Assembly: GCA_903910555.1 (NCBI GenBank)
Contig: CAIVZZ010000013.1
Span: 186,001 to 250,000 of the forward strand
Direction: 5' to 3'
DNA length: 64,000 bases
Source of the DNA: an uncultured Gemmatimonadota bacterium
GTDB taxonomy: Bacteria; Gemmatimonadota; Gemmatimonadetes; Gemmatimonadales; Gemmatimonadaceae
Within the stretch, counting starts at the first letter, position 1; every line of letters starts with the position of its first letter. This document shows positions 7,062 through 62,684 of the stretch, piece by piece. The notes under the pieces were generated by a model, which was given only the letters and a program-made list of their open reading frames with translations, was not told the DNA's origin and searched no databases. The position numbers and the translations under genes were made by a program.

Positions 7062-7065
7062 GAAA

Positions 7066-7181
7066 GTCTGGCGTCTAGAGTCTTGTGTCTAATGTCTGAA
7101 AACCCGCTGTCGTCAGTTCAGAGCTATGAACTGACGACAGCGGGTTTTCAGACTCTAGACAACAGACCTTAGACCGAAGAC
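7066..7181. repeat. long inverted repeat filling a convergent intergenic gap
   Basis: Perfect 27-bp stem 7094-7120 / 7127-7153 with 6-nt loop gagcta; flanking gtct-rich arms also pair imperfectly. Confidence 0.9.
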
Positions 7182-7184
7182 TAC

Positions 7185-12126: not shown

Positions 12127-12278
12127 GCGAGTGAACTGTTAACTACTAACCGTTGGTCGGTTAACTAAGGTCTGAAAATCAATAAAGGGCCGCGGCACCA
12201 AAGTTTCCGTGCGCGGCCCTTACTGGTTCGCAAACCTTGGTCAACCGACCAACAGTTAGTGGTTAACAGTTCACTCGT
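12127..12278. repeat. nested inverted repeat; outer arms belong to a dispersed repeat family
   Basis: Outer arms 12127-12170 and 12235-12278 pair at 39/44 with all five mismatches transitions; inner arms 12185-12197 / 12209-12221. Confidence 0.9.
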
Positions 12279-14807: not shown

Positions 14808-14966
14808 GGTTTTGACAACAAAAGGTGTGCGTTAACGGTTCTTGGGCCTTGGTAGCGAACTAACGGCGACGGGACAGGTCGTGGGATTTCCCCGACCTGT
14901 CCCGTCGTAGTTAGTTCGATACCCATTACCAACACCCGTTAACGCACACCTTTTGTTGCGAAAACC
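14808..14966. repeat. very long inverted repeat (about 78-nt arms) between convergent genes
   Basis: 23-bp perfect outer stem 14816-14838 / 14936-14958; 9-bp stem 14856-14864 / 14910-14918; 15-bp stem 14867-14881 / 14893-14907. Confidence 0.92.
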
Positions 14967-19762: not shown

Positions 19763-19905
19763 ACGAGTCAACTGTTTCTGTTGGTCGGTTGCGGACGGTA
19801 AACAATCAGTCCTGACACCGCGCCGCATCGAGCGAGCTTCATGCCAGGACTGATTCTTACACCTTGGTTAACCGACCAACAGTTAGTGGTTAACAGTTCA
19901 CTCGT
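19763..19905. repeat. nested inverted repeat, second copy of the dispersed family
   Basis: Right arm 19862-19905 is 43/44 identical to 12235-12278; left arm (from 19763) carries an internal deletion; inner stem 19804-19814 / 19845-19855 perfect 11 bp. Confidence 0.88.
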
Positions 19906-32345: not shown

Positions 32346-34073
32346 ATGACACTTCGCCGTCTGGCCGCTTCGCTGGTGCTCGCCGCCGTTCCGTTCGCGT
32401 CGTCACCTGCGCAGGTGCTGCGCGACCCCGGCAACATCGCGCCGCCCGCGGCGGTCACCGGCGAAGCAACCGTCGACGCCGGAAAACGCGCGCAGCAGGA
32501 CTTCGAGCGATATCGCCGGCAGCATCTCCAGAGCGCCAGCGTGGGCCGGCCGTCGAACTGCGATGAAACCGTCGGCCGCTTCTGCTATTGGTATTCGGAA
32601 CGGCAAACGATCCCGCCGGAGCCGAAATCAATTGCGGAGGCTCGCGACAGATTTATTTCGACGCTTGATTCGCTCTCGGCGCTTTCACCCGCCGATCGGT
32701 GGCTCACCGGCCAGCGCGTGCGCTACCTGGACGAAGCCGGGCGACACGACGCCGCGCTCGCGGCGGCGCGCGCATGCAAAGTCGGCGGCTGGTGGTGCGA
32801 CATACTCACCGGGTTCGCATTGCACGAGATGGGGGATTACGCGCAGGCGGGAAAACTTTTCGAGACCGGTATCGGAAAAATGCTCCCGCGCGACCATTGC
32901 GCGTGGCATGACGTTTCGCTGCTCATCGACGACGACGCCCGTCAGCAATACCGTCGCTTTGTCTGCGGCGATCCGCAGCGCACGGCGTTCGAGGAGCGCA
33001 TCTGGTTTCTGGGCCGCACACTCTACTCCATGCCCGGCAACGACACGCGCACGGAGTGGTATGCGCGCATGACGATGGCGGAGCTGCTGAAGGACGCGCC
33101 GAGCCAGTATCAGTTCGGGTTCGACGACGACGAACGCGAGCTGATGCTCCGGTTCGGCTGGGAGCGAAAGTGGGCGATGACGCGCGACGGGATCACGGGC
33201 GAAGAGACCACGCCGGCGTATCGGATGATTCCCGCGGGCTTCGTGATCAACGAGCCCTCGCTCTCCGATTCGGCAAACTGGCGCCTGCAACTGCCGCCGG
33301 TGATCGCGCGCTACGGCCCGCCGTACGCAAAGATCCTGAAGCCGCTCGAACATCAGAAGGCCGTTTTTCATCGCGGGGACAGCGCGCTGGTCGTGCTCGC
33401 CTACGATTCGCGCACGATGCCGGAACTCGCGGGTGTGCCGATCACGGCGTCGCTCGTCGTGACGCCGGGCACGGTTCCGGTGGGCTACGGCAAAACGATC
33501 AACGATGCGTCGCCGGTGGGCGTGATCATCGCGATGGCACCGTGGGGTCCGCTGCTGATGAGCGCAGAGGTTTCCGCGCCGGCGCATAGCGCGGTGGCGC
33601 GCGCGCGTTACGGCGTGCGTCCGCCGTTTGCGATCGGGACGCGAGTCACACTGTCTGATTTGCTGTTCTACAAACCGTACGGAAGTTTTCCGTCGAAGGT
33701 CGAAGACGCCGCTCCGCACGCGGTTCCGACCGAGCGACTCCGAGCCGACGAAAAACTCGGCGTCTACTGGGAATCATACGGCACCGACGCGAGCGGCGAG
33801 ACGATGCACATCTCGCTGACGGTGGTGAAGGAAGTCGAAGAAAGCGGTTTCCTGAAACGCAAAGCCGAGGCACTCAAGCTGATTCAGCAGGCGACGCCGG
33901 TCAGTGTTTCGGTCGACGATATGTCGGCGCGTGGATCGAGCGTGTCGCCGCGGGCGATTGAGCTGGATATTTCGACGCTCAAGAAGGGATCGTATATCGT
34001 GCAGCTCGAGATTACGGTGGCGGGGCAATACACAGTCCGGGCCGAGCACAGAATCGAAATCATTGGGCCGTAG
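32346..34073 (+). CDS. hypothetical secreted protein
   Basis: Signal peptide MTLRRLAASLVLAAVPFASSPAQ; no recognised family. Confidence 0.8.
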   Translation: MTLRRLAASLVLAAVPFASSPAQVLRDPGNIAPPAAVTGEATVDAGKRAQQDFERYRRQHLQSASVGRPSNCDETVGRFCYWYSERQTIPPEPKSIAEARDRFISTLDSLSALSPADRWLTGQRVRYLDEAGRHDAALAAARACKVGGWWCDILTGFALHEMGDYAQAGKLFETGIGKMLPRDHCAWHDVSLLIDDDARQQYRRFVCGDPQRTAFEERIWFLGRTLYSMPGNDTRTEWYARMTMAELLKDAPSQYQFGFDDDERELMLRFGWERKWAMTRDGITGEETTPAYRMIPAGFVINEPSLSDSANWRLQLPPVIARYGPPYAKILKPLEHQKAVFHRGDSALVVLAYDSRTMPELAGVPITASLVVTPGTVPVGYGKTINDASPVGVIIAMAPWGPLLMSAEVSAPAHSAVARARYGVRPPFAIGTRVTLSDLLFYKPYGSFPSKVEDAAPHAVPTERLRADEKLGVYWESYGTDASGETMHISLTVVKEVEESGFLKRKAEALKLIQQATPVSVSVDDMSARGSSVSPRAIELDISTLKKGSYIVQLEITVAGQYTVRAEHRIEIIGP

Positions 34074-34100
34074 CTGAGAGCTGAGTGGGAGTTTGAGAGG

Positions 34101-34406
34101 GAGTTAGTGGGAGAGGTGAGTTGAGAATGAGAAGTGAGTTAGAGAGGGAGGGATGAGTTGGAGAAAGTTCAGTGGGAGTCTGAGGGGCGAGCGTGAGGTG
34201 AAGTGGGAGTAAAGTGGGAGTAAAGTGGGAGTAAAGTGGGAGTGAGAGTGGAAGCGCCCTCTCACTCTCGCTTTACTCCCGCTCCGCTCCCACTCAGCTC
34301 CCACTCAACCTCACGCTCATCCCTCAGACTCCCACTTCACGTACTCAAACTCATCCCTCCCACTCTTACTCACCTCTCATTCTCAACTCACCTCTCCCAC
34401 TAACTC
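34101..34406. repeat. giant purine/pyrimidine-asymmetric hairpin with 11-bp tandem repeats
   Basis: 32-bp perfect outer stem 34101-34132 / 34375-34406; about 27/30 stem 34170-34199 / 34308-34337; 9-bp apical stem 34240-34248 / 34259-34267; four agtgggagtaa units 34202-34245. Confidence 0.95.
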
Positions 34407-34439
34407 ATCCCTCCCACTCAACTCGCCCCTCCCTCTGCC

Positions 34440-35468
34440 GTGACCGCAAGTGCGATTGAATCGTCTCCGCGCGTGAAGACATTACTCGCTCTCCTACTGC
34501 TTTTCGCCCCGCCGCTCACCGCTCAGGCGACGACCGACTCCGCCGCCCCAAAGCCGAAACACAAAACTGCGGCTCCCGCAGCCAAGAAGAAAAAGCCTGT
34601 CCCGCCACCGAACGCGGACAGCATCGCTTTGGCCCGCGAAGACTCCATCCTCAACGCGATGTGGCCGGTGAAGACGCCGGATCCGCTCCCGGGTTCCCTG
34701 CTCCCGTCGCACCGGATTGTCGCGTTCTACGGAAATCTTCTCTCGAAAAAAATGGGTGTCCTCGGCGAATACGAGCCCGAGGAAATGCTCAAGAAACTCG
34801 ATACCGAAGTCGCCGCGTGGACCAAAGCCGATCCGACGACGCCGGTTCAGCCGGCGCTGCATTTGATCGCCGTTGTCGCACAGGGCGGCGCCGGGAAAGA
34901 CGGCCGCTACCGGCTGCGCATGGATTCGTCGCTCATCGAGCGCGTCGCCACGCTCGCGGCAAAGCGAAACGCGCTCGTCTTTCTCGACATTCAGGTCGGT
35001 CTCTCAAATCTCCACGACGAACTCCCCCGCCTCGCTCCGTTTCTTTCGCGGCCGAATTTCCATCTGGGGATCGACCCCGAGTTCTCAATGAAGGACGGAA
35101 CACCGCCGGGGAAAAAGGTCGGCACGTTCGACGCCGCCGACGTGAACTATGCGTCGGCATTCCTCGCGGAGCTCGTCACGAAGTATTCGCTCACGCCGAA
35201 AGTGCTCGTCGTGCACCGTTTCACCCAGCATGGAGTGACGAATACGAAAAAGATCACGCTGGACCCGCGTGTGCAGATCGTGATGGATATGGATGGATTC
35301 GGGCCGCCCGATCTAAAGAAGAACACATTCAGAAAGTGGATCAAGGCGGAACCGGTGGAGTTCGCGGGGTGGAAGCAGTTTTATAAACCGCGGAACGACA
35401 ATCCGAGAACGACGATCGCCGAGATTCTGCGGCTGCATCCGCGGCCGCTCTACATCCAATACCAGTAG
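34440..35468 (+). CDS. hypothetical secreted protein with K/A/P-rich linker
   Basis: 342 aa, signal peptide, PKPKHKTAAPAAKKKKPVPPP linker then a globular alpha/beta domain. Confidence 0.8.
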   Translation: MTASAIESSPRVKTLLALLLLFAPPLTAQATTDSAAPKPKHKTAAPAAKKKKPVPPPNADSIALAREDSILNAMWPVKTPDPLPGSLLPSHRIVAFYGNLLSKKMGVLGEYEPEEMLKKLDTEVAAWTKADPTTPVQPALHLIAVVAQGGAGKDGRYRLRMDSSLIERVATLAAKRNALVFLDIQVGLSNLHDELPRLAPFLSRPNFHLGIDPEFSMKDGTPPGKKVGTFDAADVNYASAFLAELVTKYSLTPKVLVVHRFTQHGVTNTKKITLDPRVQIVMDMDGFGPPDLKKNTFRKWIKAEPVEFAGWKQFYKPRNDNPRTTIAEILRLHPRPLYIQYQ

Positions 35469-62601: not shown

Positions 62602-62684
62602 TGACGCAGAACGCAGGAGAGGAATTCGGACGCGGGGTGGAGTGTGAGTCCCTCGTCCTAATTCCTCTCCTTCGTTCTGCGTCA
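62602..62684. repeat. long inverted repeat downstream of S9 peptidase
   Basis: tgacgcagaacgcaggagaggaattcggacg (62602-62632) pairs with cgtcctaattcctctccttcgttctgcgtca (62654-62684), two mismatches. Confidence 0.88.

Follow-up and report, generated by a model that had tools for sequence, protein, structure and literature searches.

Why should the entire gap between two protein-coding genes, from a stop codon at 34073 to the next start at 34440, be occupied by a single long hairpin? The question is raised by positions 34074-34439 of a 64-kb stretch of DNA from an uncultured Gemmatimonadota bacterium (hereafter the window, meaning the whole 64,000 nucleotides analyzed). We found that this hairpin is one of many copies and no single oddity, and that its arms match those of an element elsewhere in the same genome with a PF05635 (S23p) gene in its loop. 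It is probably a non-autonomous copy, lacking an open reading frame (ORF), of a mobile hairpin element whose full form carries such a gene. The system is best read as RAYT/REPIN-like, with 34074-34439 as a non-autonomous member and the PF05635 protein as sole candidate protein. To our knowledge, the function of PF05635 proteins, so far known mainly from 23S rRNA insertions, and the way 23S intervening sequences move have been unsettled for three decades, and the elements described here could give the family its first testable function.

Anatomy of the intergenic hairpin

The features at the locus are as follows.

34074-34439, no strand: ORF-less hairpin element of the GTGGGAG (L042) arm family, the entire intergenic stretch (from the fold and from matches to the L042 arms and dispersed copies)
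34101-34248, no strand: left, G-rich arm
34259-34406, no strand: right, C-rich arm, pairing with the left arm
34202-34245, plus strand: tandem 11-mers AGTGGGAGTAA in the left arm, three perfect and one with one mismatch (from the sequence)
34276-34308, minus strand: diverged 11-nt units in the right arm (from the sequence; repeat family D4)
32376-34073, plus strand: upstream gene without Pfam match, its stop codon abutting the hairpin (gene call and Pfam search)
34440-35468, plus strand: downstream gene without Pfam match, its start lying at the end of the hairpin region (gene call and Pfam search)

A preliminary description of the locus had reported a hairpin of about 300 bp with a perfect 32-bp outer stem. 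That stem is present (the 32 nt at 34101-34132 form the exact reverse complement of 34375-34406) and the structure is larger than stated, with full arms of 148 nt that are 86% complementary and separated by a 10-nt loop. When folded, the whole of 34074-34439 forms one hairpin of about 350 nt, its pairing reaching outward to approximately 34078-34424. The predicted energy is -281.6 kcal/mol for one strand, compared to -132 +/- 6 for shuffled sequences (z = -24), and -280.4 kcal/mol for the opposite strand (z = -27). Near the apex, an 11-mer array does lie at 34202-34245 as described, consisting of three perfect AGTGGGAGTAA units and one AGTGGGAGTGA and not of four agtgggagtaa units. Nor are repeats confined to the left arm, since about three diverged units, CTCCCGCTCCG, CTCCCACTCAG and CTCCCACTCAA, occur in the right arm at 34276-34308; the 11-nt period thus runs through both arms, in unequal copy number. 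No promoter was found at the hairpin, and the window yielded no Rfam match and no tRNA or tmRNA.

PF05635 genes and ORF-less hairpins in the same genome

Searching the genome of origin (3.2 Mb in 32 contigs) with the 34101-34406 hairpin returned 29 matches in about a dozen places, which include roughly ten related hairpins without an ORF, each of them intergenic. The complete copies of this G-type have the G-rich arm first and then the C-rich arm, are placed between genes, and align along the whole arm at approximately 70-87%. At C25:12390 (L027/L042), G-type arms about 490 nt apart enclose an ORF (L027:4190-4657) that is a member of PF05635 (49.9 bits, cut-off 33.8), and the 34101-34406 hairpin matches both arms of this L042 element over 144-164 nt at 82-87%. 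Because its arms match those of L042 while its own 10-nt loop holds no PF05635 ORF, the hairpin is a non-autonomous derivative of a PF05635 hairpin element and not a full member.

The L042 arrangement is general in this genome: all 11 PF05635 genes lie between long inverted repeats (arms of 44-170 nt, 70-97% identical and 320-594 nt apart), with a different arm sequence at each locus. A profile of the loop proteins matches the solved PF05635 structures 2GSC (XCC0516; E 8e-37) and 2RLD (E 3e-16). Proteins of the L042 type, unlike 2GSC and 2RLD, form a divergent subfamily that the Pfam model matches mainly over the middle part. Every PF05635 protein carried a net positive charge (n = 44, median +5), which together with the match to S23p-type structures fits, without proving, nucleic-acid binding. 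Arm similarity also tracks protein similarity among 40 elements from this genome and its genus (Mantel-type rho 0.31, reached in 0 of 999 permutations), an association uncorrected for phylogeny.

It is extremely unlikely that the hairpins belong to a classical REPIN/RAYT system or are the remnant of a retroelement (diversity-generating retroelement, group II intron or retron). PF05635 proteins have a relative in Avd, a protein found in diversity-generating retroelements, but the genome contains neither a reverse transcriptase (0 matches to PF00078, for which positive controls rang) nor a RAYT/Y1 transposase (0 matches to PF01797, for which control genomes were positive), so that both were rejected as the partner. 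The architecture and copy pattern do resemble those of REPINs (PMC3116915), yet the arms of the resident PF05635 elements are far longer than the 20-40 bp of REPs (PMC3733652).

ORF-less copies are not limited to the G-type. The arms of the other ten PF05635 elements gave 114 matches in the genome, among them about 20 copies of a palindrome of about 118 bp for the L038 family and smaller ORF-less sets for L035, L036, L039, L041, L043 and L044, so that most of the resident arm families have ORF-less copies. With 34074-34439 included, the window holds seven hairpins of six families, each with arms that match a PF05635 element of this genome. The other six were all recognized by arm match and have no assigned strand.

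897-1035: sister ORF-less hairpin of the L036 arm family (C18:43859), a stop codon 4 nt away
7065-7182: sister ORF-less hairpin of the L038 arm family (C5:83772), flanked by convergent stop codons at distances of 3 and 2 nt
12128-12277: sister ORF-less hairpin with the outer arms of L037 (C11:21050) and its own inner terminator-like stem
14808-14966: sister ORF-less hairpin of the L039 arm family (C15:310199)
19778-19882: weaker sister hairpin with L037 outer arms and a different inner stem
62602-62684: sister hairpin of the L043 arm family (C19:23022)

These sisters bear on the suggestion that strand asymmetry might give the locus a cruciform, triplex or G-rich structure. The asymmetry is peculiar to a single arm family; the hairpins at 7065-7182 and 14808-14966 lack it, yet share the architecture, placement and gene partner, and a triplex or G-structure role is unsupported. 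The hairpins at 12128-12277 and 19778-19882 share outer arms and have unrelated inner terminator-like stems, which suggests that host sequence can end up between the arms. Among 34 further ORF-less copies inspected, none lay inside a called gene, edges were often 2-10 nt from a stop codon, and eight sat between divergent genes (gene calls came from a simple codon-usage script, with approximate start positions).

Could such palindromes arise by template switching or fold-back synthesis during replication, with no mobile unit and with their similarity reflecting convergent low complexity? The arms are rich in short tandem units that would favor slippage and template switching. Against this, the dispersed copies align along whole arms and have internal mismatches in common (e.g. 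left GAGGGATGAG versus right CTCGCCCCTC), which fold-back at each site would erase; this argues that both arms were copied as a unit and not made on the spot as a palindrome. With the further ties to PF05635 loci and to PF05635 gene number (see below), we regard this origin as very unlikely.

Two local arrangements were also seen. Several L043-family repeats are clustered within 2 kb at L164 (C13:14400-17700). The contig ends C26 (L029:1-300) and C6 (L031:1-510) carry pieces of an IS3-type transposase (rve_2; weak HTH_Tnp_1) beside a C-rich arm, with about 15 tandem 11-mers on C6; these transposase pieces are probably one insertion sequence that entered a hairpin apex, where the assembly then broke.

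Distribution, site turnover and maintained pairing

To score arms, the left flank of each PF05635 gene was locally aligned with its reverse-complemented right flank and compared to 644 random control positions of the same genome. Scores above the maximum of all controls were obtained for 11/11 loci of the genome itself, 30/40 of the genus and 16/20 of the family or order, or 57/71 in total, a count that includes orthologues and is hence non-independent. The median loop among scoring loci was 499 nt, and arms in relatives reach 191 nt. A null with partners shuffled between loci was dropped, being spoiled here by orthologous loci and, among the cross-phylum loci, by low-complexity arms that they have in common; random same-genome positions and, across phyla, dinucleotide shuffles replaced it.

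The preliminary description had proposed searching for agtgggag arrays elsewhere; besides those in the same genome, G-type matches occur in six other species of the genus and in 0/23 genomes searched outside it. The divergent subfamily that includes the L042 protein, assigned from a weaker, partial match to the Pfam model, is present in 8/18 genus genomes. G-type hairpins were detected in 7/8 of the genomes with this subfamily and 0/10 without (Fisher p = 0.00025, no phylogenetic correction). Hairpin density likewise rises with the number of PF05635 genes (Spearman 0.80, p = 0.0006, 14 genomes including this one; densities from comparable genome stretches), an association that also carries no phylogenetic correction. 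In genus genomes holding 0-1 PF05635 genes, 384 kb yielded 3 hairpins, of which two are matches of 62% identity and probably coding; genomes with 7-11 genes yielded 23 in 312 kb. Density is uneven within the genome itself, with six strong hairpins in the 64 kb of the window and two in 100 kb of five other stretches.

Scanning GTDB genomes with a profile built from six PF05635 proteins identified 80 PF05635 loci in many phyla. Flanks were dinucleotide-shuffled 60 times per locus, and 51 of 73 loci scored above all of their own shuffles (expected 1.2), so that the inverted-arm pattern extends to many phyla in weaker form.

Comparison of orthologous sites revealed turnover. At the site of the 34074-34439 hairpin, two other species (G010 and G002) have diverged G-type hairpins and a third (G012) is empty, and at five other window sites the relatives are empty or have an unrelated hairpin or one of the same family. 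Thus, which hairpin a site near a gene end carries is subject to change. The palindrome is therefore not absent from close relatives, and the worry that one arm is an assembly fold-back finds no footing. Although such artefacts can yield long inverted repeats, the two arms differ at about 14% of positions, separate loci of the same genome have their own diverged versions, and diverged hairpins stand at the orthologous site in the assemblies of two other species; the chance of an artefact is practically negligible.

Elements that carry an ORF are also often retained at orthologous sites in different species. In three of eight orthologous pairs (L090/L083, L083/L039 and L082/L034), the arms together with the PF05635 ORF are inverted relative to the flanks, as expected from recombination between arms. 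In seven ORF-less copies compared over 93 pairs, 93% of cells are standard pairs and 16/93 pairs changed on both sides, a result reached in 0 of 500 shuffles. These compensatory changes indicate that pairing has been kept in copies of shared ancestry, be it as RNA or as DNA.

Such maintained pairing would also be expected if the hairpins were host regulatory structures selected at gene ends, such as terminators, mRNA 3'-end stabilizers or RNase III sites, with the PF05635 genes as passengers. The many hairpins lying 2-10 nt from stop codons, the inner terminator-like stems of 12128-12277 and 19778-19882, and the occurrence of different families at one orthologous site across species, as if a hairpin were wanted there, would fit this explanation. 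We nevertheless consider it unlikely, given that relatives without PF05635 are almost hairpin-free, each arm family of the genome is tied to one specific PF05635 locus, some orthologous sites are empty, no intrinsic terminator (GC stem plus T-run) was found at 34074-34439, and 8/34 of the listed hairpins lie between divergent genes.

Several observations weigh against the preferred reading, that of a mobile PF05635 hairpin element with ORF-less copies. Apart from the non-independence of orthologous loci and the purely associative, phylogenetically uncorrected correlations noted above, 10/40 genus loci have no clear arm pair, one genome (G017) has the divergent subfamily and no detected G-type hairpin, and only 21/73 cross-phylum loci exceed every shuffle of all loci. 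Empty orthologous sites could be deletions, the persistence of ORF-bearing elements suggests that movement is rare, and visual comparison of the flanks with those of relatives revealed no target-site duplication of the kind that marks a MITE of a DDE transposon, the boundaries not being sharp. Furthermore, since some hairpins share outer arms but not the inner stem, the copied unit is not always the whole hairpin.

Known systems, a possible mechanism and other phyla

The closest relatives by protein and architecture are the intervening sequences of 23S rRNA that carry an S23p/IVP ORF, as in Coxiella burnetii, which have been described as selfish or mobile by an unknown mechanism (PMC4990558). 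In Coxiella the 28-bp stem is cut by RNase III, and in Xanthomonas campestris the S23p protein forms pentamers of four-helix bundles (PMC4990558). Both systems have one ORF of the PF05635 family enclosed by complementary, stem-forming ends (PMC4990558). Unlike these insertions, the 34074-34439 hairpin lies between two protein-coding genes and not inside a 23S rRNA gene, the genome has 11 ORF-bearing intergenic copies with differing arms of 44-170 nt as opposed to 28 bp, and ORF-less copies are many, the 34074-34439 copy having lost its ORF or never had one. We therefore describe it as a form of the PF05635 hairpin element that is intergenic and amplified and has ORF-less progeny. Intergenic S23p hairpin elements were not found in the literature searched, which excluded most subscription journals, so that an earlier description is possible.

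REPINs are extragenic palindromes in many copies that are related to the flanks of a single-copy gene (PMC3116915). The present hairpins likewise are many, extragenic and related to gene-flanking sequences, with PF05635 in place of RAYT and a probable dependence in trans. They differ in the absence of PF01797 from the genome, in a partner without a known catalytic center, in their far greater length and in the many families per genome; the lack of PF00078 matches similarly sets them apart from diversity-generating and other retroelements.

A mechanism consistent with these comparisons would start from the full-length element, with two long complementary arms and one PF05635 four-helix-bundle gene in the loop. 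Copies would move or be copied as entire hairpins and settle between genes, often directly behind a stop codon, the position at which an mRNA hairpin may do least harm, and would then diverge while their arms stay paired. The basic four-helix-bundle protein of each element may recognize its own arm family, in the form of either hairpin RNA or single-stranded DNA; ORF-less copies may depend on it in trans as REPINs do on RAYT. Because no PF00078 reverse transcriptase or PF01797 Y1 transposase was found, the chemistry of movement would have to be supplied either by host enzymes or by PF05635 proteins themselves. RNase III would probably cleave the transcribed hairpins, as it does the stem of 23S rRNA intervening sequences. 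The repeated presence of a PF05635 gene in the loops of intergenic hairpins, together with matching ORF-less hairpins, leads to a testable claim, namely that each PF05635 protein would bind the arms of its own element and maintain or spread them. If true, this would be a REPIN-like intragenomic hairpin population without RAYT.

The flanks of PF05635 genes in other phyla may connect these elements to another class of repeats. A strong tandem stretch with a 7-nt period is found in the flanks of 37/80 loci, no other tested period except the multiple 14 giving a comparable stretch, and such stretches are concentrated near the gene (40/61 near flanks versus 7/61 segments more than 1 kb away). The heptads beside these genes (L255-L334, in many phyla) include AGCTNTT and TCAGTTA, and one locus (L285) has the TAACTGA/TCAGTTA unit itself. 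TAACTGA heptamers were previously described as intergenic direct repeats in Beggiatoaceae, Cyanobacteria and Bacteroidetes, with suspected horizontal spread, just one indirect repeat, a location mostly directly upstream of start codons and an unknown carrier; neither S23 nor four-helix occurs as a term in the text of that study (PMC4679880). The flanks of PF05635 genes in many phyla share the 7-nt period, and the hairpin elements offer a possible explanation for heptamer arrays in unrelated phyla. We tentatively propose, at somewhat less than even likelihood, that PF05635 proteins serve as the factor for mobility or maintenance in a widespread class of bacterial hairpin elements. Each would recognize its own heptad-built arms and sustain ORF-less hairpins in trans, with no known transposase or reverse transcriptase involved. 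The 23S intervening sequences would then be a special case that landed in rRNA, and TAACTGA-type arrays would be traces of such elements.

Among the cross-phylum loci, one in Chryseobacterium oranimense (L328, NZ_FQWT01000006.1) has a PF05635 gene with short inverted arms between groES and groEL, and in Acidobacteriota the elements at L280, L281 and L322 adjoin a topoisomerase I gene (gene names assigned by eye from the sequence).
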